Below are positions 28,143-64,000 of a DNA stretch of 64,000 nt, piece by piece. Each line of letters begins with the position of its first letter. Positions within the stretch are counted from its first letter, which is position 1. The translations under genes were made by a program, and so were the position numbers. The notes beneath the pieces were generated by a model that searched no databases, had not been told where the DNA came from, and was given only the letters and a program-made list of their open reading frames with translations. Source of the stretch: Dictyophora rubrovolvata (Eukaryota > Basidiomycota > Agaricomycetes > Phallales > Phallaceae); the NCBI GenBank assembly GCA_029959195.1, contig CP114119.1, forward strand, positions 496,001 through 560,000. The letters are read 5' to 3'.

Positions 28143-28155
28143 GGTATATATACTG
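28143..28155 (+). promoter_or_regulatory. TATA-like box in unit C
   Basis: GGTATATATACTG, conserved in copies B and D, about 500 bp before the right end of the unit and downstream of both ORFs, as at a U3/R junction. Confidence 0.45.
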
Positions 28156-34498: not shown

Positions 34499-34885
34499 CT
34501 GGCCATGCTGGTTTCCAACTCCCAGCACTCTGCTGACCAAAACCTCCCAGATAACCATGATCCCCATCTGTCATTCCATCCGCAATCAGTTCCTCCCAAT
34601 GCTTATTCTGCATTCCCACAACACCCCCACCATAATCCCCATCCATCATTCCATCCCCAAACCATTCCCCCCAATGCTTATCCTCCTCTCCTGCAACACC
34701 CTAACTATGATCCTTATCTGTCACCCCATCCCCAGACCTTCCCTCCCAACACTTATCCTCCATCCCCGCAACACCCTCCATTTCATCCTAATGTCCGGAC
34801 TCATCCTTCCAATCCTTATCCACTACCTCCCCTTACACAACCGCAGCCATCCTACCAGCATGGATACCCTCTGGATCACCAATGA

Positions 34886-35308
34886 TTTCCCGCTGAACTC
34901 TGTGAATGCGCCTTGCTGTCATACACGCCAAGTCGGCCTTTATTTTTAGCTCTTGTACTCAAAGTCTTTAATGCTGATAATATACTTGAGTTTATTTTTA
35001 TTTGTTGAACGGCACGGCACGGCTGAACGAACGGAGACTAAAATGCGTGACAATGATTTATTTTGACATTATTTTTGCTATTACTATTTATGAGTTTCCC
35101 TGCACCGGTCTCACCAGCCCGTTTAGCCGAATGAGACGAATCGACTGGAATCCCCCATTTATGTAACTTTCAACACACTAGTAACGATGCTTGACCGTGT
35201 TTTCTACGAAATATTCAGCAAAATCATCAAGTTTTATATACTAGCTATTCATTCCACTTAGTTCACTCTTCTTTTGATCTTGACGTGTGACATGCTGCTT
35301 GGTATTTT
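34886..35308. other. Intergenic, nothing seen
   Basis: AT-rich sequence downstream of MULE-like copy 2, with a short CGGCACGGCACGGC stretch near 35012. Confidence 0.4.
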
Positions 35309-41842: not shown

Positions 41843-41889
41843 TAACTCTATTCTTGTCCTACGAGGTGGTTATCAACCAAAGAGATAAT

Positions 41890-42567
41890 TTATACATACG
41901 AGGCTGGGCGGCCCGCCGTGTGCACTGAATTTGAGGAACTTTGTGTCCGCCTTGATTGTTCAGCCTTTTTCCTTAGACGTTGGTATGTTTCGGAATCCGG
42001 AAATTCGCACCATATACATACGGGAAGTGACAAACAAGTATAGCGGGCATCGAAACGAAAGGAGTGGTACTTAACTGTCAATGATTCGCTGTAAGACGTG
42101 TTTGGCTTGTCGGACGAAATAATAAAAAGATTTGGAGCTCTACGTTTAATTTCAAATTTGTTTGTGTTTGGATCTTCTTCCTCGATATGCAGAGCTAGAA
42201 GAGGTGTGGTAACTAGCCTGAGAGACCTTTTTTCTATACGTTGTCCATTTAGGTTGTCCCTCCTCGGCCGTCGTAGAAGCTCTTTGATAACGACCAGCTG
42301 AAACAATTTGACCCGCAAATTAACGGCACCCAAAGCATCGTTAATAAGACTATTTACATAAAATTCCTTACAGGTCGTTGCCTCCTTCTTTGAAATTGCT
42401 ACTCGCCCTGTATTCTGTTTCTTTCCACTGCGCGATGAGCTTGATATTAGCAACCAACTGAAACAGCGGCGGCTTTCAAGTTGAACGACATCATATTCAC
42501 CCTCAACGAAATCCATATTGTGTTCGCTCACCACATCAGGGATTGAAACTCTTACCGCCGCCGACAT
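41890..42567 (-). CDS. Unrecognised protein, 225 residues
   Basis: A single open frame from ATG (MSAAVRVSIPDVV) to a stop at 41890. Acidic N-terminus (FVEGEYDVVQLES), then basic stretches; TNKFEIKRRAPNLFIISSD and TVKYHSFRFDARYTCLSLP look structured, and the C-terminus is Arg/Ser-rich. Parts may be unspliced introns: several in-frame GT...AG pairs exist. No known domain. Convergent with the acetyltransferase, 47 bp apart. Confidence 0.35.
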   Translation of the reverse strand: MSAAVRVSIPDVVSEHNMDFVEGEYDVVQLESRRCFSWLLISSSSRSGKKQNTGRVAISKKEATTCKEFYVNSLINDALGAVNLRVKLFQLVVIKELLRRPRRDNLNGQRIEKRSLRLVTTPLLALHIEEEDPNTNKFEIKRRAPNLFIISSDKPNTSYSESLTVKYHSFRFDARYTCLSLPVCIWCEFPDSETYQRLRKKAEQSRRTQSSSNSVHTAGRPASYV

Positions 42568-42822
42568 TTTACTCTGAGAGGCGTTTAGACTCTAGAGATT
42601 GTGCCTGGGTCAATGCTATTTTCAAATTCCGTACTCAATGATTTTGTTATTTATTTACTTACATCTTACGATTCATTCGATATAAACATTCTTTTGATGG
42701 AGTCGGGTTTTATTATTGGCGGTTACGGTACATTAAATACCGTTAGATGAGTTCCCTTGCGCGCCCATATCTCCTATGTTTTATATCTCCACATCAGGGC
42801 ACAGCCAGGCGATAAATATCTA

Positions 42823-44532
42823 TCAATCTACGTGCTCGACTGTCAAACTACTTATGACAACACCATTCCCAGCTGCAAGTGGGATTTCATTGGAGCTAGT
42901 TATGCTTTTAAAGGGATTAACGGCTGCAAATGGCGTTTCGATGAAATCGAGTTGATAAACTGAGGCTTGTTGGGAGGCTTCCCAGACGATGTCCGTGCCT
43001 ATCAGAATCACCCGATTCACAGTGGCTGTGATTAAACTCCAGCTTCCCCTATGTAACGGAATTAACAGTGAAAATTTCAGAGGGAAGAACCGCATACACC
43101 GAAGATAACGCTGCATAGGCGAGCTGAAGGATATATAAGCAAGGAGTTAGTGAGATGGAGGAGATTATTTAATTGAACTTGAAACCTACATTTAGTTTCG
43201 CGATTACGATGATGTTGAATATACGAAGAGCTGTTATCCCCGTCGGAATTGTGTCAGTGTATATTGTTGGATATACATGGCTAATCACGTACTTATACTA
43301 ATCTGAAAAATTAGAACTGAACTAAGGAACGAAGACTGATAGAACCCGAGGTAGAGAGACGCACCATAAAGTAACCCAAACCATCGTTAAAAAGCTGTCT
43401 GACTAGGACTGTGTTGGTTTCCCTGGGGCGCTCGAAGGCGTTCCATATTGCTAATATGGCTAGATAGATATCAAGGACGACCTGAAGCCAAAAAAATACG
43501 CAAACAGAAAGTAGCTGATGAGAAGAACAACAGACCAATAATGTCCAGGTCACGATCAAGGATGTAGGTCTAGTCTCTAAAGCGCACTCTTTGAACGGGG
43601 AGCTAAGGTAGCCGGTATGGTCTAGAGGAGGCTTAGATGCAAGAAATCGTTCAATATCCTTTACGTACGAATGAAGTAATGAAATATAGCTTTCATAATC
43701 TAAGATGACATAGTAACAGTTACAATCTGGATGAGACTCACTATAGATTGAAAGGGCCACGGCCGTTCCATATACGCATACAAAGGGCGGAATAACAAAT
43801 CGAAGGATTCGTTTGTTATAACCCCATATAGCATAAATGCGATGGAACACGAAAACTGTGAAGGATCGTAAATGATAGCGAGCGAGAGAGTTTTTATCCA
43901 TACAATTAACTACTCCAATACTTATAGCTGACGCGAGGGTTACAATGATTAGCATCGCCTTGCAACTGTAATTAATGAGTTTAGAAACAAGTGCAAAACG
44001 AGCGCCGGAAGGGGATCCTTACGTCTAAGTTGAATTATAGAAGTGAGGACTAAGGTTACTGCACGAAAATGCGGACACGGCACGGGAGCTTACTGTAAGT
44101 GTATATGTTCCTGAAGATATTGTGCTTAACTCTAGGAATGGTATTGAGAATTAATAGCCTTCAAGAGGAGGTCATACATTACGATATGCAAGGGCTATCA
44201 GACAGACTGGTACAATGTATCGGTTCATGAGGAACCCGATCTTCCATCGTGTCCATCTGGCAGTCCAAATCAAACGACACTACACTCCATAATTACTATA
44301 AGGGAGGATAAGATAAAGAAAATCTCAGACGCACCTCATAGTCAAAGAGAAGGAGATGGTCATATAAAAGCACGACCGTTCCCGCGACTGGTAGAAGGTA
44401 TGGGGTGAGATGTGTACTCGATTGAAAATTAGATGCCTTACTAGATAAATAGCTGGCAACGTTTCGTGCTACTATCAGCAGGATTGCTTCACCTTTGGTG
44501 ATTAGTGTTACAACAGTTGTGGACATGGACAT
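42823..44532 (-). CDS. DUF6533-type seven-helix membrane protein
   Basis: The N-terminal DUF6533 block is clear: LLPVAGTVVLLYDHLLLFDYE, intron, CRLIWTARWTRWKIGFLMNR, YIVPVCLIALAY. Later exons add AVTLVLTSIIQL, a segment HRIYAIWGYNKRILRFVIPP, a Cys-bearing extracellular-type loop, VVLDIYLAILAIWNAFERPR, and IPTGITALRIFNIIVIAKLN, followed by LAYAALSSVYAVLP and SWSLITATVNRVILIGTD. Family members are multispan proteins of unknown function found in large numbers in Agaricomycetes, with a GPCR-like layout. Start ATG 44532. Exon joins near 44000 and 43060 are uncertain, and the last exon may need a one-base shift, so 3' decay is possible. Confidence 0.65.
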
Positions 44533-45498
44533 TGAGACCAAAGACGAGGACCGCTAGTAGGTCGCGATTGTCACTACAAATTATATACTTCCTTCATAGC
44601 CGGTCTGTTCCCTCCGGTAAATTGCTCAACTGAGTCCTCACTCAAGATGTCAACGTAGGAGAAGCACTGGTACAGAGGGCCAATATCGGCGAACGGAGTG
44701 GGCGCCGGCGCTCATTGCTCATTAGCTTGTCATTACTATTTGTCATCAGCTCCCCTGCTCATTAGCTCCCCAAATGAGCGGCATTAATCGCTTGGTGAGA
44801 CCTGGTGAGACGCAGTCGTGCGAGGAATTCCCAAGCAGAATTACAATTTTGATCTGCCATGTGCAACATTGAGAACCCGAGGCTTTGGATAATAAATGAA
44901 GAGATCCCATCTGCTTTTACCGTTCGAGAAGAGGTGTGGCTAAGCCCTACTTGGTACGTGTATGATATGATCCAACGAAATCTTCTTTGATCGAAATATT
45001 GATATATATATATATATATTATATTAATTTTATCATAGACTGTGCTTCAAAGTGAAAACTGAAAAAGTTTTATATAATTCTGTCGCCTAAACCTTCGGCT
45101 GAACAGGAGATTTTTGTGTGTATGATATCCTGTCTTGTCTTGCTGTCTCGTCTTGCTCTCTCTCCGAGGATGGCAGTTGGGGTAGGTTGGGGGAGGAGCG
45201 GGGAAGTAGCCTGAGGACGGACGACCGCCGGGACGGGCCTCCTGTCCTACGGTTCAGATGCCACCAGTATCTACAGGACGTTGATGCCGTCTCGGCTCCA
45301 GGTCTTTCCCATGGTCACCGCCACTCGCTGGCAGGTTGCGCCTGTCGGAGTTTGTGAACTATTATGTAGCAGCAACCCAAAAAGCACATCAATGATCGCT
45401 GCGAGGTTATCTCAACTAGCCTCCGAATTTTTCTAGCTTTCAATCTCCACTCCTAGAAGACCCTTTCTGACCTCAACTAATTAAACGCTGCAGTGTCA
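44533..45498. other. Intergenic with AT microsatellite
   Basis: A (TA)n run at about 45002-45020 and no supported gene. An open frame at 45118-45357 lacks domain or splice context. Confidence 0.5.
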
Positions 45499-47587
45499 AT
45501 GTACCCAACTCATGATCTCGCCCAAAATACACTTTTTCAATGCGGTTCCGAAAGACATACGAAGGAAGAACAAATCTCACTTTCTTATCTTCGAGCAAAA
45601 GCTATTACTGAAGCTTATGGTTCGTCATGATGCCCCTGGTCGCACTATTTCGCGGTTGTTAATCGCTTCGCACATCAGCTCTCACCATTGAAGACATTCT
45701 TCAACTCTCACCAAAGTTCTGGCAGCTCCATACCGATCCCATATGGGCAATGGATGGTGCAGCTGGGACATTGGTTACCATTCAGCTCAATTTGTGCGCA
45801 GGAACCCTCGCCAATTTCGTTAAAACACAACCGTATATATATGAAACTCTTCAAAAAATTCTGTCCTTTGAATATTCGTACGTCTAAACTGCTTAGATTC
45901 TGATATTTATATGCACATCCTCGATTAGGGGTCAGTTTTGTCTGACAGAGGTCGGGCATGGTCTTGACGCTCTTCACATCGAAACCACCGCTACCCTACT
46001 CGAAAATGGCCAATTTGAGCTCAACACACCTTCAGAACACGCGGCAAAGTTTGTATTGTATTGTTATAACAACCAACAATAGCCTAGTTGATATCATCCA
46101 ATCAGATACATGCCTCCTACCAAGCCAATGGGCGATAAATGCGTTGCCGTGGTTTTCGCTAGGGCCTTAGTCAACGGCGAAGATCACGGTGTAAAACCAT
46201 TCCTCGTTCCCATCAACGATGGTATCAATATGCACCCAGGTGTTGTATGCAAGTCAGTCCCCGAAACATACTCTAAAATCTATTCACAAGATGCTCATTT
46301 TCTTTCACTGAAGGTGCCTTCCTCACCGGGGCGGCTCAAAACCCATCAACCACAGCTTGACGTATTTTCACAAGGTTCTCGTACCACGTTCGGCGCTTTT
46401 GGGAACACTAGAGAGAGCCAAGGACGCTAGAGCAGCTTTCTTCACGCTCATTTCTCGAGTAGCAATTGGAACGCTGGCAATCGGATCTCTAGGCGTCCCA
46501 GCGCTCCAAGTATCTTCCTACATCGCTGCTCGATACAGCCTGCGGCGAATGGTGACAGATCGAACCGGGAACCAGATCCCCATAATAACTTTTCGAACTC
46601 AAAAAACCCCAATTTTAGTAGCTCTGGCACAACACTTCGTTATGAAGGCACTACATGAAGCGGCGGTTCCGCGGTTCTTGGACCATACCCTTCCATTGAC
46701 TGTTCGTCACGCAATTGCCACAGTTGTCAAGGTTGTCATGATGCAGCACGGGCAGACAGCTAATTTGGGCTTGGGAGATCGATGTGGTGCCCAAGGCCTT
46801 TTCGAGTACAACCAACTCTCTACCATGTTTGTATGTATTCATTCCACTTCATGTCACGCCTTGTGTTTTTAATTAACCTTTCCGAAGATGGATATGAGAG
46901 GCACTGCTATTTCAGAGGGCGATACTCTCGGACTGTCTATCAGTTAGTGTCATTTCATTCTCAATAGAAATCCTCCCTGATATATTTCTATATCAAGAAT
47001 TGGCGTCGGAGTTGCTTTTGCGCCGCTACAGTCTCCCCCCTCCGGCGGATGCCGAAAGTCTGCTTGCCCGCCACGAGAGCGGACTCTTCATAGAGTTAGG
47101 AGACTTGCTGAAGACTATAGGAGACCATCGATCCCCTGATTATGACCGTTATATTCTTCCAGACTGCCTCCTTTTAGTGCAATCCATTGGCCATCGGATG
47201 GCATATGACGCGGCCGTCAATGCGAATATCGACCAGTATCTTATCGACCTCTACGTGGCAAGCTGCGTAAAACTAGATTCGGCGTGGTACGTGGAACATA
47301 TTGGACTAGGAAGACAAGCCCAACGAGAGCTAGAGGCCGCTGCGGTTGACGCCGTTTTTCCCCACTTGGAGTCCCTTTTGAACAGGCTGGAAGTTGAGCC
47401 GTATATAACGGCACCCATAGTTTCCGAGGCGAGCTGGAATGAGTTTGTCAATGAACTGCAGCCGTTTGTTCCTTCCACAAATGACAGCAGTCAGAAATAT
47501 ACCATCCTTCACGGAGTTTTCGAGGAAGTCACCCGCTTCTTTTTCGGTCAGCTTGATTCGGGCGAACGTTGTCGGTTAAAAGTATGA
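45499..47587 (+). CDS. Acyl-CoA oxidase/dehydrogenase-like flavoenzyme
   Basis: Probably oxidises acyl-CoA thioesters with FAD; a peroxisomal or specialised role is unknown. The first exon from ATG 45499 (MYPTHDLAQNTLFQCGS) is joined to DPIWAMDGAAGTLVTIQLNL, FCLTEVGHGLDALHIETTAT (the oxidase-type TExGHG substrate loop), KYMPPTKPMGDKCVAVVFAR, GVKPFLVPINDG, LPPRGGS-like and NHSLTYFHKVLVPRSALLG segments, then helical C-terminal domains ending ERCRLKV at 47587. About seven exons, roughly 620-640 residues, near normal for the family. No C-terminal SKL-type peroxisomal signal. The last ~500 bp lie in the tandem duplication and recur at 54713-55200. Confidence 0.8.
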
Positions 47588-47863
47588 ATGGGTGGAATTT
47601 ATTAGAGTTCAGCGGAAGTTAGTTAATCTTTGACATCAGGGACTACATATGTGTGTTGTACTTTAAGTTTGCAGCATCCTCAGCGAAATATTCGTGTGGG
47701 GACTTAAAATTAGCGGTCTGGTAGAAATTAATATAATTAATTCGTGGTACATTAAAGGATTGCATAAATAATATCCCAAAGGAATCTGAGCTTTCCTTCT
47801 CTGCTAATGTGGCGCACAGACATGGGGGAAAGGGAGATATACAAAACCTTTAAAAAAACGTTT

Positions 47864-48969
47864 TTAAGCTCCTGGAGGTCGCGAAGCAGCTCTGTGCCAA
47901 ATCTCGCGAACCGCGTTCCAGTACCTTTCAGGATCAGTTCGGGCATGCGCAACATGAGGGCTTTTCTCATATTTTTCGAACTTTACATCCAGGCCTGCAG
48001 ACGATGCTTGCTCAATATGCCTTTCGACATTTTTTGCCAACGTTATCGTGTCAGTCTTGGAGTAGATATAGAGCCGGGGGATATTAAATTTGACTTCTTG
48101 ACTATCATTGGTAAAAATGGGAAGGATGTTAGCTTGAAGGAAGGTGTCTCGTAGCTCGTCAAAAAGGGGCCGATTCCCTGAAATTGTGTTTATGAGGTAG
48201 AAAATACTATAGGCCAGAGCGACAAAGGGAATAGTGACCAAGCGGAGGAGAGGGTTCGGTGAGGCGTTTGCAAGGATTGCAGACTCCAGACCATTATCTC
48301 CCGGAGTGGAGTCCATCACGAGCGCGATATGACAGTCGTCGCAGTTTGAGGAGATTGGATCTTTCAAAAGCATTTTGCGAAGAGTCATGAGCTGCCATCC
48401 TCCACCTACATGCCATGTCATAGTATCGGATAATGTAGAAAGAGTAAATGCAACAGAACGGTTTACCATTTGACATAGTGTGCAGAAGGACGCCTTTGTA
48501 ACCACTGTTGCCCTCGAATTCTCGACGAAGAATGCCTATTACTGGCTTGAGAATGGATTCCTGAATATGTTCAACCCAGGTTAGTTCAAATATCAGTAGA
48601 ATAAAGTGTACCTTGGTGCTCTCTGACGTCCAGTAAAATCTGGAGTTCACCATGACAACTACTATGGTCGACTTGTGAAACAAGCCCCTATAGCTCGCCA
48701 CATATTTTTCCACATGAGAACGTGCTCCATCCACTAAAGGACATGATGAACGATGGCTACTAGAAGCTGTGATAAAGAATTTTCACCCACTCCAAGAGAA
48801 GAGGATGATGACTCTGTAAGTTCAAGTTAGCACTCGTCCACCTCGTCCACTGCACAAGAAAGCATTCTTACGAAGGACTGACGTCGCCCACATTGTCGAC
48901 AGTTGTCTGGGGTGGCTCGGAAACTAAGACATGTAAATTCAACTTATTCAAGTTCAAAGACGTAGCCAT
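47864..48969 (-). CDS. DUF829 (TMEM53/PaxU-like) alpha/beta hydrolase-fold protein, copy A
   Basis: Five exons from ATG 48969 (MATSLNLNKLNLHVLV) to TAA 47864. Features: VIILFSWMDGARSHVEKYV, where a 51-bp intron splits the Met codon; TIVVVMVNSRFYWTSESTK; HTMSNGGGWQL, where the Ser sits in a nucleophile-elbow-like SNGG; VMDSTPGDNGLES; RPLFDELRDTFL; IPRLYIYSKTDTIT; and HVAHARTDPERYWNAVREIW, holding the candidate His. About 300 residues, usual for the family. Members include PaxU of a Penicillium indole-diterpene cluster and human TMEM53; reactions are unproven. Tail-to-tail with the oxidase gene. A near-identical copy is at 55487-56592. Confidence 0.88.
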
Positions 48970-49299
48970 GCCAGGAATCGTATACTACAAATGAATGAGG
49001 CGCCGAAATTGCTTTCACAGCCAATTATATTGACAAGGACCAAGCGGATGGTTATGGTATGATATTGAGTGTGCTGATCATTGCGTACTAAAGCATAATG
49101 GTTCTTCCGCGCCATGTATTGGCGTATGATTCGCGTGGGATTGGAATCTGCATTATACATAGATGACCGGAAATGAATGGGCGTTTCATACGATATATTA
49201 ATATCCGACTGATGCGCAACACTGGTTTCTTGTAATTGGACAAATTGTTATATACGATGTGGGTCCCTTTCCTACTAATTATCCACAAATCATTGTTGA
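48970..49299. other. Intergenic part of block A
   Basis: Aligns with 56593-57060 of block B upstream of the P450; no coding sequence. The P450 start is missing. Confidence 0.6.
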
Positions 49300-50728
49300 C
49301 CTGACCTACGTTGCATCTCGTGGTAGGAGGAAGGGTATTCATAGTCTGTACAATATACACAAGCTAATCATGATGTTTGTATCCTAAGGTTTTGCCCCAC
49401 ATATCATTTCTTCCAGACTACAATATTTCTAAACATACGTAGTACTTCATATTCTTTCGTTATTTAATCTCCTACTCCCCTAGATGAGAATGGTGCGAAA
49501 TATCTGCCTTTAATGGAGTTCGACGTCGGACATATAAGGTAAATTTCATTTTCATTACACATTCATCAAACGTGTATGCATGATTACTAGTACTTCGTTC
49601 TAAAAAGCGGTAAAAAACTTTGTACCGTCGTTTTTATTGTGTGCATGCGCGTACATTAGTGTTCTTAGATAATCTATGCTAATAAAAATGATGCCAAGGA
49701 AGTTCGGCGTTTGACATATTTTGGTATGAAATTCAATGCGATACTGGAATCTCATGTTCAGGAAGGAAATATGAGATGCGTTTGGAGGTGAAGAGCAGTG
49801 AGCGAAGTTAATAGGGAATGAACGAAGGTTGTTAAACCGCGAAGAATTGTTGATGGACGAGTAAATTTAAATAAAAAGATTATATTTCAATCATTAATCT
49901 ACATGAACTTCTTGTTCTAATTACAAGAAGCTTCAAACGGGCGATTCGACGCTGTACCAAACTCTTGTGAATTGAGCATCACCGGTTGATCTCAGGTGAC
50001 CAGGACTAATACTCATGAAGTTTTGACTATACTATTTTCATACCTTTTTTTCGGAGTGAAAACAAAGTATATACTAAAACGACTAGGAAACATGTTGTTA
50101 GTCTGGACCAGTAAATTGGTTGATAATACGACGTTTGAGATATTATTAGCTGTTGGCTGTTGTGTCTCAACGGTTAATGCGTGTCATCCTTTTGTTTTGT
50201 CTACGGGGTTGGTGGGTTTGATTTGCCCCCATGTTTCTTTTGTGTAGGAAATTACGTGATATCTATCGAACTAGAACAATGCTAAATTCAAATTTACTTT
50301 GAGGTGAATACACCAACAACCCTCTATGCCACGTATATACGTGGGCCACCCATCTCCAGTTTTCGGGGACCACCATCTCGCCTCCCAGCTGGGCCCGTGC
50401 CTTGATAGATCTGAGGCCGACATGCCGAGTCGGATGCAATAGGCAGGCGCCGGCACGGCACCAACGTCCTGTCGAGCACGCGGGATAAAAAAGTTTGTGT
50501 TTCTCTGTGCTAGAGGTGGCATCGGAATCCGCCGAGCAGGAGCCCGTCCACCCGGCGGTCTTCCTGTCCCGCGATCTGAGCCCAGCTCAACCCCCCAACC
50601 TACCATCTCTGGGAGCAAGACGAGACAGGATCAACTGAACACCGCCTTTTGTTTGATTGCCGCGTACTCCGCCGAAATGCACAGGCGGAGAAGTTGGTGG
50701 GCCTTGGGTGTGAATGATACGGTGTAGC
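49300..50728 (+). pseudogene. P450 remnant, copy A
   Basis: Only the 3' end survives. At 49304-49330 a degraded DPTYVA...GRR segment corresponds to block B 58996-59040. At 49390-49549 a segment reading DENGAKYLP and EFDVGHIR corresponds to 59104-59249. The last exon (CRVLRRNAQAEKLV) is at about 50630-50728. Compared with block B about 1.9 kb holding the start, I-helix and ExxR region is deleted, and the last intron has grown from 55 bp to over 1 kb by insertion. Not functional. Confidence 0.8.
49600..50620. other. About 1 kb of extra sequence in the last intron of the P450 remnant
   Basis: Present in block A, absent in block B. No clear terminal repeats or target duplication. Contains a 23-bp GC-rich segment (50439-50461) that recurs at 53795-53817. 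Confidence 0.55.
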
Positions 50729-50802
50729 AAATCAAGGCGAAGAGATGGTCATATTGTGATTGATATTATTTTTAACACCCAGGAATCAGCTTCGCCATGC
50801 TA

Positions 50803-51023
50803 CACGCCCAGCGAGAAATGGCACCATTAATAGGACCTATGGATTGGGCTCTGAATCGCCACCAATTTGGTACCATTTCAGTACTGACTTCATTTCGTTT
50901 TGGCTAGCCGAGATTAACCGATGCGATGACATAAGACATTGGTACTGAAATGGTACCAAATTGGTGGTGATTCGATACATAATCCATAGGTCCCATTAAT
51001 GGCGACATTTCTCGCTGGGCGTG
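50803..51023. mobile_element. 221-bp MITE, TA target, only in block A
   Basis: Terminal inverted repeats start CACGCCCAGCGAGAAATG and continue imperfectly for about 85 bp, so nearly the whole unit is a hairpin. TA on both sides (50801-50802 and 51024-51025). The matching place in block B (near 59490) has a single TA and no insert. Tc1/mariner-type non-autonomous element, no coding sequence. Confidence 0.88.
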
Positions 51024-51630
51024 TAGTGAAGCGATTAGGATTAGCGTTTCGCACCGAGGCAAAAAAATCATTAATACTATGTATTAGGGTTCGTATTTAT
51101 ATATGATTATTATTATTCGTCTAAGAACAATATTCCCTCCGGTGTTTAAGGTAAATTAAGAACTCCCGGGGTACGGAAGAAACAAAAGGCGCAATCACAT
51201 TAAAATAACTGCGTTGCGCCCTGTTGCGCCCATCACTAAATCTCGAAGCATAAATGAATTGCCAGGGGCAGGGGCAATATCGTCCCTCTTGATTTACTCG
51301 TATCAGTTTGAAAGGGGGATCGTTACATATCGAAGCATTTAATCCCCTTAATGTACCCAAATTATCGTGGTAACGTAATCATTAGAAATTGAGAATCACG
51401 AGCCATTGATTATTGTCTTTTTTTATCACGGAACGGAAGTTAAAGCCGCTCTCACTGCCATTAGGGTTTATTAGTTGCTTGAAAACATGGCAATAAATTC
51501 GATATCCCACAGCACATAGTAACATATATACAGAGAGTATACACAAAGTTTTAGAAAATAAAGTAAAGGAGTGGCTTTACACAATAACACGGGGCAAAGT
51601 CCTGCCCGTTTTGGCTCGACATCATGGAAA
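51024..51630. other. Intergenic part of block A
   Basis: Aligns with 59495-60101 of block B; no gene seen. Confidence 0.6.
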
Positions 51631-53390
51631 TCAGGTCAGTTGTGATCCTTTACGTTTCACAAGAATTGCCCGAGCCACCAATAAGAATGCGACTCCCGCA
51701 AAAATTGAGACCTGAATATAAATATAACCTGTTAGCAAATGACCTTGCGCTCAAATTTAGGTTTGCATACTCCACTCCAGATGAGAGCTCGGTGCCAGGG
51801 GAAAGTATTCCCAAGAAGAGCCCCAATAACGGGATTACCCACGAGAACCCCAAAGGAGGCAAGAAAGAAAGCAATTCCAAACCGGATCCTACCACCAAAT
51901 ATTAGTGAATTGTTCCGTCTGAGGAATACAATGTGACCATACCCGACTTCAGTTTGATCTTTGGAGAGAACTGCAATGGCAGGTGCACAGAGCGCTAAGA
52001 CTGTATAAAGTTCAGAAAGGAAAAAACTTTAAGCTCTACTCAAAAATTCCACTTACATGCGCCAGATGCCCAACCGTATATGATTGAGAATATAACTGTC
52101 GAGGCAACAGTTTTAACGCCAAACAGGGAAAAAATCATAATGCCGCATGTAGCAATGACCGGAATTGCTGAATTGAAAGGCCCAATATAGTCGGCGAGCA
52201 TGCTCATTAGCACTCGACCAGGGATTGCTCCAGCATTCATGATCGCGAGCTATGTACTTGATATCAATTATGACCGCCGATCAGCGTAAAACAACGTACA
52301 GTATAGAATGCCACTTGTGTATTCACACCGTTCAGTATTGCGAATAGTTGGAGATAGAAATCTGGATGATAATCTTAGCCTCTGTGAACATGACGATAGC
52401 AATATATTTAGCTTACAAGGGAAGAAGACGCCCCAGAGGGCGAAAAAAACTCTGCGACAAATCTCCTTAGCAAATAATTTTCAACATATTAGTTAGTTTA
52501 TTTCTCACCCCAAAATCGCCAATAGATATGGAGTGTCTGTCATTATGCCTTTGATATCAGGCTTTGGGCGTGATCCAGCTTTTCGAGCCTTTGCCGTCAT
52601 TAGTAGATTGGACACTGTGAGCATGCCTAGGACAACGAAGGCCGATATGCGTACACCCCAATGAAAGCCGATACGACCTTTGAAGAATTGGTTCAACATG
52701 ATCGGAAATATAATGCCCCCAATGGACGAGCCTATACGAGGATGTGAAGATGAACTTTTTAGCGATACACAAATTTTATATTACCTGTAGCCACGATACC
52801 CATAGCGAGGGCACGACGATTACGCCAATGGTGTGCTTGCACGGCGACACTTGGGACATAAAGTAGACCTGCGCCTATCCCCATCCCGAGTCCTTGTGAG
52901 AGATATAATTGATAGTATTTGTTCGGATGAGATAACGAGAGCATAAAGAGACTGAAAAACAGATGAGTACACGGTCTGTAATGACATAGCAGGTACAGAC
53001 GAAAAGACGTATAACGAAGAGCCCGCAAGAGTTGTGGCACGAAAATATCCCATATCCAACAATTTCCCAGCAGGGAGAGCCATTGCTTGGAGGAAGAAGA
53101 GCTGTGTCGAACCAATCCAACTGATCGCGGAGGATGAAGCAGTATGGGATTGAGTATAGAAATCTTGGTATACGCCGAAGCTATTTGCATAGCCGAACGT
53201 TGTTGCAACGACTAAAAGACTAATGGAATGTTTTTGAATTTACAATATACGTCGGCAGCTGGAGCAAATCGTACCCTCCAATGACAGTTGCCCACGCTTG
53301 TCGTCCTCCGTCCATAATATCATCCTCATATTGGACTAGTTTAGACTCAGACGACTGACGGCTTGGTGGTTTCTCGATTACTGTCGTCAT
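51631..53390 (-). CDS. MFS transporter, monocarboxylate-porter (MCT/MCH) type
   Basis: Plasma-membrane facilitator for a small organic acid or riboflavin-like solute; the substrate cannot be told. About eight exons from ATG 53390 (MTTVIEKPPSRQSSES) to TGA 51631. Order: cytosolic acidic N-terminus with DGGRQAWATVIGG; NSFGVYQDFYTQ; SSAISWIGSTQLFFLQAMA; GLGMGIGAGLLYVPSVA; HHWRNRRALAMGIVATG with SSIGGIIFPIML; LWGVFFPYFYLQL; NAGAIPGRVLMSMLAD; IIYGWASGA; NPVIGALLG; and the C-terminus VSIFAGVAFLLVARAILVKR. These are the usual MCT loops and 12 spans. All joins are GT-AG. Copy B at 60102-61004 lacks the middle. Confidence 0.82.
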
Positions 53391-53570
53391 TGTTGTACGC
53401 GGACGGTGGAAGAAAGACTGTTAAGTATACTGCTCCTCCACTCAATGCCAGCGACACGCCCATGGCGCCTGGTACTGAGATGGAATATCAGCTGCGAGTC
53501 TCACCCTATAACCAGGCGCCTTCTTTTTTTGCATGTGTTGCAAAGGTGATAGTTGAGTGGGTAGTGCTGT

Positions 53571-54450
53571 TGAGATCAGAAACACCCGAAGACGAGAACC
53601 CGTCAGAAAGAAAGCGCCAAAAAAAGGACAGCTATTTAGATCGACGTTTTAGTCCCTTATCCACCTTTTATTTTTATCAAAATACAATTTCTATTCCATT
53701 TTCCCTATAAATCTTTCCTTCAGCAGACTCCTTTCGTTGTTATTTCCTAAGTGAGTACCTTAGGTTCTTAGAGCATGAGTATGTCGATATTCCATAGGCA
53801 GGCGCCGGCACGGCACACCATTAGCATGCTCAAGCATCATTCAGTTTTTCATTCCCACTATCCCATTTCCTTTGTATTGCGTTTCGAGCGTAGCTCGCCT
53901 CCCAACCGCAAAGCGAGACGAGGCATGTGATGTTTATTATTGTTTATTTGTATTGTTTGTATCTCGAATGTTATTTTTAGTACATTCGTTACATTCAAGT
54001 GACGCGTGACTTCCATATTCCGGCCGGCGGCTCCTTAGCGTTGCTGAATTAGATACCGCATTTCCGACTCGTTTCGTAACTGCATTGTTTCAAAATCCTC
54101 GCCAGGTGGAAGCTCATATATTCCTATCATATCCCAGCTTTCGAGGGAGTTACAATGATCTAACATCCAGAAACAGTGAGCATAAAGATGAAAATTGTAG
54201 TCAATGGTACATGTAAATCACCCTTAAGAAATCTTGCCATAAATCATCTTCATATTCTTCGACGAAACGACTCTGGTTATCGTGATGGCTGCTGGGTAGG
54301 CGGGTCTGGGTAGATGGGTCACGGAATCCTCAAAAAATCAAGTCCTGTGCCTAAAGGGATTGCAAAAGTTTAGTCCGCAGTGCGCGCCAAGCCTGAGGCG
54401 ACCGAGAAACTGAGCTTTTTTTCCGCTGATACAACGTGGAACGAATTTGA
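53571..54450. other. Spacer between duplication blocks
   Basis: No gene supported. Contains the second copy (53795-53817) of the 23-bp GC-rich segment found at 50439-50461. Confidence 0.45.
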
Positions 54451-54713
54451 GCGATGTGGTGAGTCCGAGACGAGCCGTTTTGTCCTCATCCACTGACCTA
54501 CCATCGACCCACCACTACACCCCAGCGGCGGTCTGACCACCGAAACACCACCGACTTTGAAAATCAGTGGTCCATTACCACTAACCTTCCAAGTTCCACT
54601 TACCACTGACCCGCCACTGACATACCACTGGTACTTAGTGATATCAACCGCTGACCCACCACTGAATACGAATAGTCAGTGGTAATAGACACTAAATACC
54701 ACTATATCCAGTG
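54451..54713. repeat. CAGTGG/CCACTG-rich repeat at the left edge of block B
   Basis: The motif CCACTGA and its complement TCAGTGG occur at least eight times in about 230 bp in both orientations, ending exactly where similarity to block A begins (GTGGACTCTTC). Looks like the end of a MITE or DNA transposon with CAGTGG-type subterminal repeats; boundaries not determined. Confidence 0.5.
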
Positions 54714-55200
54714 GACTCTTCATAGAATTAGGAGACTTGCTGAAGACTGAGGCCATCGATCCCCTGATTATGACCGTGATGTTCTTCCAGACCGCCTCCA
54801 TTTAGTGCAATCCATTGGCCATCGGATGGCACAAGACGCGGCCGTCAATGCGAAGATCGACCTCCACCTGGCAAGTTGCGTAAAACTAGATTCGGCGTGG
54901 TACGTGGAACATATTGGACTAGGAAGACAAGCCCAACAAGAGCTAGAAGCCGCTGCAGTTGACGCCGTTTTTCCCCACTTGGAGTCCCTTTTGAACAGGC
55001 TGGAAGTTGAGCCGTATATAACGGCACCCATAGTTTCCGAGGCGAGCTGGAATGAATTTGTCAATGAACTGCAACCGTTTTTTTCCTTCCGCAAATGACA
55101 GCAGTCAGAAACGTACCGTCTTTAACAGAGACTTTGAGGACGTCAGCCGCTTCTTTTTCGGTCAGCTTGATTCGGGCGAACGTTGTCGGTCAAGAGTATA
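54713..55200 (+). pseudogene. Acyl-CoA oxidase 3' fragment, copy B
   Basis: Corresponds to 47081-47587, the last exon of the oxidase gene, starting in mid-exon. A small deletion, an added T in a T-run near 55080 and other differences break the frame. The fragment never had a promoter or the catalytic part, so it was non-functional from the duplication onward. Confidence 0.85.
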
Positions 55201-55486
55201 AGAATTGGTGGAATTTATTGGAGTTCAGCGAAAGTTTATTAATCTTTAACATCAGGCACTACACATGTGCGTTGTATTTTAAGCTTGTAGCATCCTCAGG
55301 GCAACGAAATATTCGTGCAGAGACTTAAAATTTAGCGATCTGGTAGAAATTAATACATACAATTTGCGGTACATTAAAGGATTGCATAAATAATATCCCA
55401 AAGGAATCTGAGCTTTCCTTTTCTGCTAATGTGGCATACAAACATGGTAGAATGGGAGATATACAAACCTCGAAAAAACGTCGTTT

Positions 55487-56592
55487 TCAAGCTCCTGAAG
55501 GTCGCGAAGCAGCTCTGTGCCAAATCTCGCGAATCGCGTTCCAGTACCTTTCAGGATCAGTTCGGGCATGCGCAACATGAGGGCTTTTCTCATATTTTTC
55601 GAACTTTACATCCAGGCCTGCAGACGATGCTTGCTCAATATGCCTTTCGACATTTTTTGCCAACGTTATCGTGTCAGTCTTGGAGTAGATATAGAGCCGG
55701 GGGATATTGAAATTGACTTCTTGACTATCATTGGTAAAAATGGGAAGGATGTTAGCTTGAAGGAAGGTGTCTCGTAGCTCGTCAAAAAGGGGCCGATTCC
55801 CTGAAATTGTGTTTATGAGGTAGAAAATACTATAGGCCAGAGCGACAAAGGGAATAGTGACCAAGCGGAGGAGAGGGAAGTTCGGTGAGGCGTTTGCAAG
55901 GATTGCAGACTCCAGACCATTATCTCCTGGAGTGGAGTCCATCACGAGCGCGATATGATAGTCGTCGTAGTTTGACGAGATTGGATCTTTCAAAAGCATT
56001 TTTCGAAGAGTCATGAGCTGCCATCCTCCACCTACATGCCATGTCATAGTATCGGATAATGTAGAAAGAGTAAATGCAACAGAACGGTTTACCATTTGAC
56101 ATAGTGTGCAGAAGGACGCCTTTGTAACCACTGTTGCCCTCGAATTCTCGACGAAGAATACCTATTACTGGCCGGATAATAGATTCCTGAATACATTCGA
56201 CTCAGATGAGTTCAAATATCAGTAGAACAATGTGTACCTTGGTGCTCTCTGACGTCCAGTAGAAACTGGAGTTCACCATGACAACTACTATGGTCGACTT
56301 GTCAAACAAACCCCTATAGCTCGCCACATATTTTTCCACATGAGAACGTGCTCCATCCACTAAAGGACATGATGAACGATGGCTACTAGAAGCTGTGATA
56401 AAGAATTTTCACCCACTCCAAGAGAAGAGGATGACGACTCTGTGGGTTCAAGTTAGAACTCGTCCACTGCACGAGAAAACATTCTTACGAAGGATTAACA
56501 TCGCCCACATTGTCAACAGCTGTCCCAGGCTGGGGCGGCTCAGAAACAAAGACATGTGAATTCAACTTATTCAAACTCAAAGACGAAGTCAT
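55487..56592 (-). CDS. DUF829 (TMEM53/PaxU-like) protein, copy B
   Basis: Same exon layout and length as the copy at 47864-48969, ATG 56592 (MTSSLSLNKLNSHVFV). The last exon has very few replacements against copy A (for example PP to PS near the C-terminus, NPLL to NFPLL). The motifs HTMSNGGGWQL, DSTPGDN, YIYSKTDTIT and HARTDPERYWNAIREIW are intact, so it should encode a working protein. It lies divergent from the P450 at 57191, with about 600 bp between, which may be a shared promoter region. Confidence 0.88.
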
Positions 56593-57190
56593 GCCAGGGG
56601 TCGTATATGGTACCACTTAGCTGAGATCCAGTGCTGATAAAGTACGATCGAACATGAAAAGTTTAATCGAGGCGCCGGAATCACTTTCACAGCCAATCAT
56701 AAATGACAAAGAAAAAGCCAAGAGGGCAAGAACAAGCGGGTAGTACGATATTGAGTGTGTTGATCGTTCCGTAATGGCATAATGGTGAGCGTCCGCGCCA
56801 TTGTATTCGGGTGTGATTCGCGTAGCACTATCTGCAGATAGACGAGGGGAAATGAATTAAATGAACGTTTCATGCTCCATATCCGACTGATGCGCAATGC
56901 ACTGGTCTCCTATAATCTCCATTTGACGATTGTTATACGAGTTAAAGCGCCCCGCGTGAGTCACTGTTCTTGTTAATCGACGCAAGTCATTGTTCCATCC
57001 GAGCCTAGTTGAATTGCAAACTGGTGGTAGGCGACGCAAGTTCCGACCTGAGCGTTAATAGTTTCAGCTCCTTACTATGAAGGTCGGTCCGACAGACCAG
57101 CCCGAGTCCACAGGTTATTTCTTTCAGAAATTCATCTCATACAGAATGGTTAAATTCTTCTCGAACACCAATTCAATCTTTACTGAGAAG
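56593..57190. other. Divergent upstream region of DUF829 copy B and P450 B
   Basis: No gene; presumed promoters for both. An open frame from 57077 continues into the P450 and would extend it by 38 residues. Confidence 0.5.
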
Positions 57191-59404
57191 ATGGAGTCGA
57201 CAGCTTACTTCCCAATGGGACTCATAGTTATCCTAATCGGTATTTTTATCATGTGTAATATTCGCGATCACCGTCGTTTGCCTCCAGGTATGCCCTGCAC
57301 CCTACCAGTTTGAACACCGTCAAACAAACTAAGGAGTCATTAGGACCACAGCCCATTTTTTTCTCAGGAAACCTTCATCAGCTACCGCGCAAAGAGCCTT
57401 ACAAAACCTACCGAGATTGGTCACAGCTATATGGTGTGTTCATAACTGTATCGCATCCTTAATCTCGCTATGCGACACTCTTAACGTACAGGGCCTATAA
57501 TATATATGCGAGTTTTCAGTAGAAAATTCGTGATTCTCAATTCGTTAGAGGCCATCACAGAACTTTACGAAAAGAGATCAGCCAAATATAGCACTAGGCC
57601 CAATAGCGTGAAGATTTGAATTGACTCTCAATATTCCATGTTTTTTTATGTATATTTCATATAGGTTATGGGGGGTACACTCGTAGGTCGTGAACAAACT
57701 GCCATCATTTTCATGAAATACGGCCCTAAGTGGAAGCAAACTCGACAACTTATCCATGGCTGGTTGGGTCAACGGGCTCTGACCAAATACGTCCCTACGC
57801 AAGCTCTGTCTTCCTATCGTTTATTGCAGAATTTATTGGACGATCCGGACCATTTTGCGGAGCACATACGAAAGTATATCATGACATTTTCAGGTTCGAC
57901 CATGCATTCAAACGGCTAACCTCGCATTGTAGTAGCGCAGGGTCTATTATTTTAAAGCTGGCTTACGGACTTGATTGTAAATCCTTCCACGATCCCTGGA
58001 TAGCGATGTCAGATGAAGTTCAGCAAATAACCGCCATTGCCACTGAGCCAGGACGCTGGCTTGTAGATTCCTTTCCTTGGCGTAAGGAGCACTTTATCTT
58101 TTACTCTTCATACGCTTATAACGCTTGTTAGTGCGTCTTGTGCCGTCGGTTCTCCCAGGAGCTGGTTTCCTGCGCTGGGCGAAGAGGTCCCGGAGGCTTG
58201 CACATGAACTTGTCAAAGCACCTTTCAATAAAGTCAGACAGGATATAGTTAGTAGATTCACAGTAACTCTTTTGCTCTGAGTCTTATATTCTATTCCAGA
58301 AGGACGGCATCGCGTCTCCCTCCTTTGTACGTGACCAACTACTCGAGGATGGCGAAGATAAGTCTGAAGAGGAGAACGACGTGCTTATCTGTGCAGCAGG
58401 AAGTTTATATGCAGGTTAGCGAATTGATCAGCCACAAATTAGACATTGCATCACAATTTTTTTATTTCATCTTGATTACCTTTTCGCCTTGCATAGCTGG
58501 TATCGACACCGTAAGCCGTAGATTACCATATTACTCGGCGGCGGCACGCTCTTAACGGAAGGCATAGATTGTTTCCACTATGCGCATGTTTTTCTATATC
58601 ATGGTTACTCATCCAGAGATTCAAAAAGCCGCTCAAAAGGAGGTAGACGCGGTAATAGGCACCCAGCGTCTTGCCACAATCGATGATCGCGACGCGCTAC
58701 CCTACATTGGATGCTTGATTAAGGAGCTTTTTCGCTTTAATGCCGTCGCACATCTTGTTCCCCATAGCCTAGATGAGGATGACGTGTATAAAGGCTACCT
58801 CATTCCTAAGGGCTCCTGGGTAATAGCAAATATTTGGTAAGAAAGACACCTTCCATACTAGTATTACAAGTTGCTAGTTCTCAGTTTCTCAAATTTAATT
58901 TTCAGGGCAGTTTTACATGATCCTACTATATATAAAGATCCGGATACATTCAATCCTGACAGATTCGGCCCTTCCCTAGAGGGAGACGCTGAGATGGACC
59001 CGACTTACGTTGCATTTTGTGTGGGGCTGGGTAGGAGGTAGGGCATTCATAATCTGATAGTATTAACATATACCCAAGCTGATCATGATGTTTTTATCCT
59101 GAGGTTTTGCCCCGCATATCATTTCTCCCAGACTACAATATTTCTAAACGTAGTTCATACTCTTTCGTTATTTGATATTCTACCCCCCTTGGATGAAAAT
59201 GGTGCGAAATATCTCCCTCCACTGGAATTCGACGTCGGACATATAAGGTAAATTTGATTACACATCAAAATCAAATGTACATGAACTCATGATCATTACG
59301 AATTAAATAGAGCACTTCGACCCTTTCATTGCCGTGTACTCCGGCGAAATGCACAGGCAGAGAAGTTGGTGCACCAGGCCTTGAATATGAATGATACAGA
59401 GTAA
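57191..59404 (+). CDS. Cytochrome P450 monooxygenase, copy B (complete)
   Basis: About ten exons with GT-AG introns, near 500 residues. ATG 57191 gives an anchor (YFPMGLIVILIGIFIMCNI) followed by RRLPPG-PQPIFFSGNLHQLP, YKTYRDWSQLYGPIIYMRVF, helix C KYGPKWKQTRQLIHGWL, I-helix AGSLYAAGIDT, ExxR KELFR, DPDTFNPDRF, and the heme loop FCVGLGRRFCPAYHF, where the usual GxC-P-G glycine is Ala. The end is PFHCRVLRRNAQAEKLV and TAA at 59402-59404. It resembles CYP51xx/O-methylsterigmatocystin-oxidoreductase-like agaric P450s from memory. Unrelated in detail to the P450 at 14614. The A counterpart is a remnant. Substrate unknown. Confidence 0.85.
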
Positions 59405-60101
59405 AAATCAAGGCAGAGATGGCGAAATATTGTGATTGATCTGAATGTGGTATTACTTTTTTTACACACAGGTATCAGATTCGTCATGCTAGGAAGCGAT
59501 ACTGGAGAAGTGATTAGGCTTGGCGAACCCGTTTCGTTCCAAGGCACAAAATCATTGATATACAATAGGAATTCAGATGATGGAGATGATGATTATTATT
59601 CGTTTCAGAGCAATATTCTCCTTAGTGCTTAAGGTAAAGAAAAGAACTCCCGGAGAATACGGAAAAATGATACCAGAAGAAAAAAAAGGAGTCACATTAA
59701 TTGCGTTGTACCCATCATTAAATCTCGAAGCAAGGATGAATTGGAAGAAGCGGCAACACGGACCCTCCTGATTCAACCGCGTCAATTTGAAAAGGGCAAT
59801 TAATTTCAAACATGTCGAAGCATTCATTCCCGTTGATGTACCCAAATTATCGTGGTAACGTAGTCATTAGAAATTCGGAATCACGGGCCATTTATTACAG
59901 TCTTTTAAGTTTTATCACGGAACGGAAGAACTGCTCACACTACTACCAGTGAAATTATTGGGCATGGTGATAAATTCAATATCCCGCAGCATACAATAAC
60001 ATATATACAGAAGAAAAGTAAAAGAGTGACTCTACATACACTATAACACGGAGAAAGTCTGAATCCTGGACTTTAGTCAAAATCATAGAAATCAGCATTT
60101 C
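59405..60101. other. Intergenic part of block B
   Basis: Aligns with the block A stretch between the P450 remnant and the MFS gene; lacks the MITE. No gene seen. Confidence 0.6.
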
Positions 60102-61004
60102 TCAGATCCGTTGCGATCCTCTACGTTTCACGAGAATTTCCCGAACTACAGATAAAAATGCGACTCCCCCAAGGACTGAGACCTGAATATCAACTGTTAG
60201 TCAATGTCCTTGCGCTTAAATTCAGGTTTGCATACTCCACTCCAGATGAGAGCTCGGTGCCAGAGGAAAGTATTCCCAAGAAGAGCCCCAATAACGGGAT
60301 TACCCACGAGAACCCCAAAGGAGGCAAGAAAGAAAGCAATTCCAAACCGGATCCTACCACCGAATATTAGTGAATTGTTCCGTCTGAGGAATACAATGCG
60401 ACCATACCCGACTTCAGTTTGATCTTTGGAGAGCACTGCAATGGCAGGCGCACAGAGTGCTAGAACTGTATAGAGTTCAGAAAGGAAAAAACTTAAGTCC
60501 TAGAGATATAATTGATAGTATTTGTTCGGATGAGATATCGAGAGCATAAAAAGACTAAAAAAATAGGTGAGTAAGCAGTCTGTAAGGACACGACAAGTAT
60601 TACTGACGAAAAAACATATAACAAAGAGCCTGCAAGAGTTGTGGCACAAAAATACCCCATATCCAACAATTTCCCAGCAGGGAGAGCCATTGCTTGGAGG
60701 AAGAAGAGCTGTGTCGAACCAATCCAACTTATTGCGGAGGATGAAGCAGTATAAAATTGGGTGTAGAAATCTTGGTATACGCCGAAGCTATTTGCGTAGC
60801 CAAACGTTGTTGCAACCACTAAAAGATTAATAATAGAATGAATTGTCTTTGAATTTTACAATATACGTCGGCAGCTGCAGCAAGCAGATCATACCCTCCA
60901 ATGACAGTTGCCCACGCTTCTCGTCCTCCGTCCATAATATCATCCCCATGTTGGACTAGTTTGGGCTCAGAATCGCTTGGTGGGTTTTCGACTGCTGCGA
61001 TCAT
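60102..61004 (-). pseudogene. MFS transporter, copy B, internally deleted
   Basis: Keeps the start (MIAAVENPPSDSEPKL, DGGREAWATVIGG, NSFGVYQDFYTQF) and the end (NPVIGALLG..., TGA at 60102) of the transporter at 51631-53390. About 860 bp corresponding to 52035-52895 are missing at a junction near 60493. The loss removes roughly the central six helices, so transport is not expected. Confidence 0.85.
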
Positions 61005-61210
61005 TCTTGTACGCGGACGGTGGAAGAAAGAGTATATACTAAGTCTGCCATAAGATAAGTTTCGGGTATAAATGCGCGCGCGCGCATGCGGGAAAGGCGG
61101 ACGGAGGTTTGTTTCTGTATGAAAGAACCAAAATCGCACCCTATAATCAGGCGCCTTCTTTTTTTTTCTGTGTGCATGCAACTTGCGAAGGTTGTTGAGT
61201 AGGTAATGCC

Positions 61211-61774
61211 AAAAATGGAAATGATCTTCAATTGTCGGTCGGCAACGCCTAAAGTGGGTTCGAGCGAAACGCCGTCAGTGGAATGACTCATGAACACCCG
61301 GTCAACGTTCGGGTCGTACGGGAAATTTGATTCTCGGGTATTGATGTAGTAGTAGTAAATCTGAAACATACGAAGTTCTCCCGAATATGGATGAACGGCT
61401 GTCCTTTTTTTCTAGTAGCCATTGCAGTGCACGATTCTGATGATCAATATCAGTCTTTCACTTCTGTATACGTGTGAGTTGTGGCTCGGCTTAGGTATCA
61501 GATCCACAGACCATTGTTTTCTCGACAGAGAACTAAGCGCAACTTCCGATATACCGCACACATGTACTGTTTACCACGAGGTTTTGTTCCTATCAAATTC
61601 CTATCAGCTGTATTTGCTCCTGAATATGTTCTTGACCGCCCATATGATCCAATACAATCATAACAACACCCGCTTAGCTGACAGCCTGAGGATTACGTTA
61701 CAATAATAATGCTCCATATTAATCTCGTCAAGAGTATCAGGTAAAATTCAACTCTAAGCCTTCCAACTACGATC
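61211..61774. other. Intergenic, nothing seen
   Basis: No supported gene. Just to the left, inside the block B edge, a CG-alternating run at about 61075-61090 is a simple repeat. Confidence 0.4.
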
Positions 61775-63610
61775 ATGAATTCTACTAGCAGTGCACTCCC
61801 TTCTGCAGTGCCCCTAACAGCAAATCTTGTCCTACCTGCACTGGACAATACCTTCGGGGCGCTGCTGATAGGTGTAGTCATTGCCTGCGCGTAAGCTCTT
61901 TGTTTGAATGTTTCTCAGTCAGCGCCCGGATAGTCATCACTTTCTGCCCATAGTCTTTGGGGCATCGGGACGGCTCAGGCTTACTGGTACAATCGTCCCA
62001 TCCCTTGTCATTTATCAATTTTCAACAGTAACATTCTTTAAGGTATTTTATAATGTATCCCAAAGACGGCCTTCGATTGAAGTTATTGGTAGGCACGATA
62101 CATCTAGCGCATCTGTTCCCGAATAATCCTCGTTTTCTCTGATCAAGGTTGCGCTTATGTGGTATGCGATCATGAACACATTTTTGGCTACATTCGGGTC
62201 CTCAGCAGCTGTCTGATTTCAATAGGATTCTCGATACCGTTCATCAGGCACTAATCACTTATACCCGTAAGTTTTTGTGGATGTAGAATTTTCACCTGAA
62301 TAAGGCTTACTGGTTGTGTTAGTCTACTTCTATGTCATTACGGTCAGCAGAACCTCCATAATCTAGCTCAATCGTCCGATCTTGACCTTTATCTTGGACA
62401 GAACTACTTTAACCCGCCGAACCTAGATTTTGCCATCTGGAGCCTTACAGTCAGTGAGAGTTTTTGACATCTACTTTCGCTGGGGCTCATATATCCGACT
62501 CGAACAGATTCAGTCTATCTTTGAAGTACGCGTTCGACTCATGAATGTACTATCGAGGAAAAACGCCTGACGTCTAACTTCCATTTTTAGTTCATACCAT
62601 GCCTTTGCGTACAAAGCTTCTTCTTGATGCGCATCTGGATCTGTGACTAAACTTTCTTTCATTCATATTAACTTGACTGAATCTCAGACAGTGAGTCATG
62701 GGAATTGGCTATTTATCATTCTTCCGGTGAGCGAGTCTCCTCTGAGCCTTCAAGGCATGCTATCGACAAGTAATGACCGGGTAAACAGGCACTCTTTATC
62801 GTTGCAAAGCTCGGTGCGTAATATGACCTATAACGTTCGATTTATTACATTTTCTGACAAACTTGGGATCGGGTTATTTCTAGTTCTCAGCATAAGTGAG
62901 TATTGATTCCGTAGCATAATCCATACGCACTGATATTCTGTCAGTCTGGACGATCAAATGTTCCGCCCTCGAATCGGTTACTCAAGGTCTTGTTCAAGAA
63001 CATAGTATCTCGGCCGGTATCAATGGCGCTGCAGCAGGGGGTGACATCCTCTTAGCCGTCACTATGGTGATTCTTCTGCGCAAATCGCGCACAGGGTTAA
63101 CCACGTCTGATACTATATTGGAAAAGCTTATGGTACGCTCAGCTGCTATATGCAATCGGTCACGAAAGAATTAAAGTATTTTCTATGTAAGATTTACACC
63201 ATCAATACCGGCGTTATAACATCGTTAGCGTCGATTGTGACTCTTATCACAGCTGAAGTCTGGAAACGAGCATTTATCTATGCCATATTTTATTTCTGCA
63301 CGGGAAGACTGTAAGAGATTATTTTTAAACGATCTCGGAAATTCGCTGACTTGGGTACTAATTGTATTATTTGCATAGCTACGTGAACACTATGCTTGCG
63401 TCTTTGAATGCCCGTAACGCCTTAAAGAGTTCCCGTCAGGGTGGAGGACAGGTAGTAGAGATGGGAAATAAATTCAAATTGGCATCCAGCGCGAATAATA
63501 CCGGGACGGAAACCAGTACCACCTTCGCCTTTTCCAGGCAAACCGGAGATGTAAGTATTGTTAACTTTTTTTGCATTTTCATTTATCACCAAGTAACCGG
63601 CCCCCGTTAG
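61775..63610 (+). CDS. DUF6534-type multispan membrane protein
   Basis: ATG 61775 opens MNSTSSALPSAVPL and LDNTFGALLIGVVIACA, the standard first helix of the family. Further exons: RILDTVHQALITYT, LYFYVIT joined to NYFNPPNLDFAIWSLT, CVQSFFLMRIW, GNWLFIILPVSE, and VWTIKCSALES. Then GDILLAVTMVILLRKSRTGL, SDTILEKLM, NTGVITSLASIVTLITAE, FIYAIFYFCTGRLYVNTMLASLNARNAL and a Ser/Thr/Gln-rich cytosolic tail. Seven helices are expected. Family function is unknown; members are numerous in Agaricomycetes. Exon limits between 61890 and 62200 are unclear, and the 3' end could be at 63610 or one small exon later. Confidence 0.7.
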
Positions 63611-64000
63611 AGCACGAAATATGAAACGCAAAATTTAATGCATGACGATCGAAATGAAGCAGTATAGGTCTGAGTCTCGGCCTATCTACTCTTCATCTGT
63701 ATGAAAAAAAAACTTCGCCATGCGATACGTATATCTTCTTGTATGTGTATATTTTGCATCAATATTATTATTGAACCTATGTATATAGATCATATGTTAC
63801 AATGATTCATTATCGAATAGCATCACCTGCTTAGTTTTCACCCTCTGACAACTCCGATAACTTTGTCCACTACCAGGTCAGCGATTTAAAAATAATTGCC
63901 TAGTAAGTAATACATGATGCAATGTCGTCTGCGCATAGACAAGTGGCTAGCGATAAAGACTCTGATCATGAAACTCACGTAGAAACAAATAGCTCATAGC
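63611..64000. other. Intergenic to the window edge
   Basis: AT-rich; no gene seen. Confidence 0.4.

Follow-up and report, generated by a model that had tools for sequence, protein, structure and literature searches.

Duplicate genes usually end up with one copy lost, and in the passages of PMC3857721 and PMC9252495 that bear on the question the genes of a duplicated set return to single copy from either copy. Parts of a study on Aspergillus (PMC12844118) describe how, in a filamentous fungus, ectopic conversion between duplicated regions near each other is accompanied by deletions and decaying genes, and in the portion of PMC3899305 that treats their origin tandem duplication is a main copying route of basidiomycete cytochrome P450 genes. 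The locus described here resembles these systems and lies in a window of 64,000 nucleotides from Dictyophora rubrovolvata (assembly GCA_029959195.1, contig CP114119.1, positions 496,001 to 560,000 of the forward strand; all coordinates below are those of the window). It consists of two neighbouring blocks, A and B, in which a DUF829 gene, a cytochrome P450 gene and a major facilitator superfamily (MFS) transporter gene follow each other in the same order, an arrangement that had been proposed from a sequence-only reading and that is borne out by five collinear direct matches and by the spliced gene models. We consider an old tandem duplication, followed by stepwise gene loss and patchy gene conversion, to be the best reading of this locus, with a probability of roughly 0.82.

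A self-BLAST of the window defines the two blocks as direct, collinear copies at about 47078-53570 and 54710-61210. The five matches between them have E values from 0 to 1e-18, which is beyond chance, and a refined alignment lengthens all five and adds a match of 53499-53538 with 61134-61173.

47078-53570: block A; the right end is the point where the alignment fades
54710-61210: block B; the right end is again the point where the alignment fades
53571-54709: spacer of ~1.14 kb that separates the blocks, unrelated
47078-48984 with 54710-56607: match 1 between A and B, direct, 91.8% identity
49322-49550 with 59030-59259: match 2, direct, 84.0%
50652-50764 with 59324-59440: match 3, direct, 81.7%
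51223-52033 with 59705-60497: match 4, direct, 80.1%
52899-53417 with 60502-61031: match 5, direct, 87.2%
45499-47587, forward strand: acyl-CoA oxidase-like gene, 7 exons, 582 amino acids, open, by manual splicing; the last exon of this gene forms the left end of the duplicated segment
54710-55200, forward strand: dead 3' fragment of the acyl-CoA oxidase-like gene in block B, with gaps of 4, 15, 1 and 2 bases against the copy of block A

Collinear direct copies, the second of which begins within a gene that stands complete next to the first, mark a tandem segmental duplication. Of the acyl-CoA oxidase-like gene the duplication includes ~0.5 kb of the last exon, within which the homology starts. 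The protein of this gene reaches 32.9 bits with Pfam ACOX_C_alpha1 (cut-off 27), the sole domain at E 0.001, and the fragment in block B has a ratio of nonsynonymous to synonymous divergence (dN/dS) of 0.75 over 161 codons. Here and below the gene models were obtained by manual splicing with GT-AG introns and the Pfam calls were judged by the curated cut-offs. Genes of these kinds with so many introns would fit a basidiomycete. Noncoding sites differ between the blocks at 448 of 1958 positions (23%), with 42 gap events, so that the duplication is probably old. Mutation resembling repeat-induced point mutation was considered and rejected; transitions number 365 and transversions 248, and inspection by eye shows no strong preference for a sequence context or for one block.

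The P450 gene has been kept in block B and broken in block A.

57191-59404, forward strand: P450_B, cytochrome P450 gene of block B, 12 exons, 514 amino acids, open, with a haem loop off the signature (manual splicing, Pfam)
49298-49550, forward strand: remnant of the block A copy, P450_A, near its 3' end, with a broken frame
50652-50728, forward strand: remnant of P450_A, last exon
49551-50651: stretch of ~1.1 kb in the P450_A remnant that has no counterpart in block B; two open reading frame (ORF) pieces, no Pfam match

P450_A is without a counterpart of positions 56917-58996 of block B, that is 2.08 kb, of which 1.81 kb are P450 gene, and only 3' remnants with frame-breaking insertions and deletions (indels) survive. 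P450_B belongs to the family with 237.7 bits for Pfam p450 (cut-off 22.8) and carries the ExxR motif as ELFR at residue 355. Its haem loop, FCVGLGRRFCPA at residue 429, does not match the motif FxxGxxxCxG, which is required for 'authentic' P450s in the section of PMC3899305 on this point. The pattern PS00086 does not match this loop either. Compared with CYP2B4 the protein has two additional residues ahead of the haem loop and an alanine in place of the last glycine (CPA for CPG). Because P450_B is off the usual haem signature, its open frame does not establish a working complete gene set. The view that P450_B is dead owing to an in-frame stop just past the GRR codons was dropped, as a GT-AG intron at this place restores the frame.

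The MFS gene shows the opposite distribution.

51631-53390, reverse strand: MFS_A, transporter gene of block A, 10 exons, 423 amino acids, open, Pfam MFS_1 81.4 bits
60111-61004, reverse strand: MFS_B remnant, with the intron-1 acceptor lost, a 0.87-kb deletion joined near 60495-60501 and an in-frame TAG

MFS_A lies above the Pfam cut-off of 33.4 and is therefore a member of the family; a simple hydropathy scan gives 10 segments, with 12 being usual for the major facilitator superfamily. The first choice of the intron-4 acceptor led to an early stop after 267 amino acids and was replaced by the other acceptor, which yields the 423 amino acids. The open frame of MFS_A depends on this second acceptor, and the gene would be broken if the acceptor is unused in life. 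In MFS_B, positions 52030-52898 of block A (869 bp) are swapped for 7 bp; the deletion join introduces the in-frame TAG, and with the intron-1 acceptor gone the next AG would yield a product of 46 amino acids. The sequence-only reading had put the losses at ~1.9 kb of the P450 in block A and ~860 bp of the transporter in block B, each with the gene kept in the other block, and both statements hold in kind, with sizes close to the lengths given above.

The two remnants differ in their state. The P450 remnant has a dN/dS of 0.58 (87 codons), and of the six gap events in its coding columns five have a length not divisible by three; two of these six events are located at alignment edges. The MFS remnant has a dN/dS of 0.32 (211 codons, one stop codon excluded), and its coding columns contain two gap events only, of 3 bases (at an edge) and 6 bases. 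On these small numbers the P450 remnant looks long relaxed and the MFS remnant looks recently constrained, unless the latter was refreshed by conversion. Thus, the P450 copy was probably lost before the MFS copy.

With P450_B and MFS_A open and P450_A and MFS_B broken, the gene loss is complementary. The sequence-only reading went on to suggest that the composite set ties the blocks together under selection. According to this explanation the three genes are one working set, a collapse of the repeat costs the P450 or the transporter, and complementary loss together with selection holds the two blocks while conversion keeps DUF829 uniform; if true, the locus would be a stable two-block gene cluster. 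The underlying crossover logic is sound, since, given the gene order, any single unequal crossover between A and B should cost MFS_A, P450_B or the two together. In addition, both genes stayed open, although a rough estimate that assigns half of the noncoding rate to a single lineage predicts 11.4 frame-breaking indels in an unconstrained P450_B and 9.4 in MFS_A. These data do not, however, require the selective part of the proposal. Two independent losses land in different blocks with a probability of 1/2, so that the complementary pattern is no evidence of selection; one locus with two losses cannot exceed this chance level, and its pattern alone says little. Furthermore, nothing here points to a joint function of the three genes, P450_B departs from FxxGxxxCxG, and P450_B and MFS_A may each be maintained for an independent reason. 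We therefore regard a selected two-block set as unlikely. If old duplication and stepwise loss are assumed instead, the complementary placement of the losses would need no selection for the composite set.

The DUF829 genes, which had been described as intact in both blocks, indeed have open frames in both.

47864-48969, reverse strand: DUF829 gene T_A of block A, 5 exons, 292 amino acids, open, Pfam DUF829 125.4 bits
55487-56592, reverse strand: DUF829 gene T_B of block B, 5 exons, 295 amino acids, open, Pfam DUF829 124.2 bits
47876-48808: tract of low divergence between A and B, probable gene conversion; 0 of 2000 permutations, introns 2 and 4 at 0/118
51759-51983: candidate for a second, weaker conversion tract, in the MFS region; reached by none of 5000 shuffles of this region alone

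Both proteins are above the Pfam cut-off of 25 and thus belong to the DUF829 family; a comparison with solved structures gave a best match at E 0.1 and nothing usable. When the blocks are aligned gene by gene, T_A and T_B have over the whole gene a dS of 0.075 and a dN of 0.027 (ratio 0.35), and this divergence is distributed unevenly. Exon 1 has a dS of 0.32 and the region 47890-48545 one of 0.037; silent differences number 5 at 138 sites versus 6 at 23 sites (Fisher p=0.0013); and no difference occurs at the 118 sites of introns 2 and 4, whereas introns 1 and 3 differ at 13 of 100 (p=2.5e-5). The stretches in these contrasts were picked after viewing the alignment. The permutation test, which shuffles within site classes, locates its own tract; it returned 47876-48808 (0.93 kb), a tract matched by none of 2000 shuffles. 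Low divergence at neutral sites flanked by high divergence is the pattern of ectopic conversion, which had also been considered feasible in the sequence-only reading.

As an alternative, strong purifying selection alone could keep the DUF829 copies alike. The dN/dS of 0.35 as well as the two indels of the coding sequence, which are of 3 and 6 bases only, agree with such a constraint on the protein. Yet the near identity extends to silent sites and to introns 2 and 4, in contrast to the silent sites of exon 1 and to introns 1 and 3. Since protein constraint would not preserve introns and silent sites in patches, ectopic conversion is probably the better reading of the patchy similarity, and selection alone appears quite unlikely. 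Conversion may have reached further. In the MFS region, intron 8 differs at 2 of 54 sites and introns 1, 2 and 9 together at 25 of 157 (p=0.018), which is consistent with the weaker tract, and the low dS of the dead acyl-CoA oxidase fragment (0.086 vs 0.262 in the P450 remnant) may reflect conversion too. Dating the duplication by DUF829 would give far too young an age.

Thus, we suggest the following history. The duplicated segment would have begun in the last exon of the acyl-CoA oxidase-like gene and have included DUF829, P450 and MFS; the copying, head to tail, would have happened long ago, and the acyl-CoA oxidase fragment would have been dead at birth. The redundancy would then have been resolved gene by gene, with the P450 lost in A, the transporter lost in B and DUF829 left open in A as well as in B. 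Ectopic gene conversion would have overwritten patches, chiefly in DUF829, and this gene would therefore look much younger than the duplication.

Several points speak against this history. The DUF829 tract holds the diverged intron 3 (8 differences at 51 sites) and may therefore be two tracts rather than one. Of 2000 block-wide permutations 233 reach the MFS tract, so that DUF829 alone among the five aligned segments exceeds the block-wide null; for the best tracts in the three segments other than DUF829 and MFS the number is 1985 to 2000. The open P450_B and MFS_A suggest that both survivors have been maintained, which also fits a selected pair. Finally, the duplication, the order of loss and the conversion are deduced from a single pair of blocks in one genome.

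Alternatively, a transposon, for example a Helitron-like element, might have captured a copy and inserted it next to the original as block B. Block B does open with a gene fragment, and the spacer ahead of it is rich in short CCACTGA-like repeats. However, no element ends were identified, the ORF piece of the spacer that was searched has no Pfam match, and adjacency and same orientation suit a tandem duplication; we consider capture very unlikely. An assembly join of two haplotypes with no duplication, the case in which the sequence-only reading saw itself refuted, is on the evidence of the assembled sequence the least likely of all, as the noncoding divergence of 23% with 42 gap events is too large and the flanks, which joined haplotypes should share, are unlike: the spacer has no match in 40000-47077 and in the 2.8 kb to the right of block B a single inverted match of 14 bases (E 0.03, chance-like).

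A protein search of the window with the genes of the locus gave no further copies beyond it (E 0.001). The DUF829 and P450 proteins found no relative in the viral_contigs collection. Block A contains one further element.

50800-51026: palindromic element of 227 bp resembling a miniature inverted-repeat transposable element, in block A only, just past the P450_A remnant

Its inverted ends have ~21 identical bases each, and a TA may have been duplicated at the target. An exact 23-bp repeat, perhaps of a dispersed element, is common to the insert of block A (50439-50461) and the spacer (53794-53816), and positions 45270-45299 upstream of the acyl-CoA oxidase-like gene have a weak inverted similarity (30 bases, 83%) to 50446-50475 of the same insert. 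The region 17000-35000 is rich in repeats, with a 1.7-kb inverted pair at 23799-25507 and 32205-33911 (98.4%) and a further copy near 26397-28653 (~86%). The ORF at 19929-20888 (reverse strand) resembles a Gypsy-type reverse transcriptase. To the right of block B, at 61740-64000, there are open pieces which by eye are like a multi-pass membrane protein; the sole piece searched there, 62628-62903, has no Pfam match.

A literature search did not meet this locus, a weak negative. Among the described systems is also the paxilline locus of a fungus, where the DUF829 gene PP112 (paxU) is listed as adjoining an MFS gene in the relevant part of PMC3760044. In contrast to that locus no prenyltransferase or cyclase gene was recognised in our window, which is annotated only in part, and we do not class the locus as a member. 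P450_B has 11 introns, and 11 introns are reported in some P450 families in the gene-structure part of PMC3899305. Unlike the tandem basidiomycete P450s treated there (PMC3899305), one copy was lost again here, and the duplicated unit also has DUF829, MFS and a partial acyl-CoA oxidase-like gene. With respect to the Aspergillus regions as presented in parts of PMC12844118, the present case differs in being one short tandem pair in one genome, with conversion proposed without phylogenetic proof. In our view the locus represents ordinary duplicate-gene decay, a known kind of event, and provides a readable example of how a multi-gene segment decays, with one gene lost per copy, one fragment dead from the start and one gene kept alike, probably through conversion. 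Reciprocal loss has mostly been described after whole-genome duplication. What separates this locus from typical reciprocal loss is that its copies lie in tandem, so that the surviving genes stay linked.

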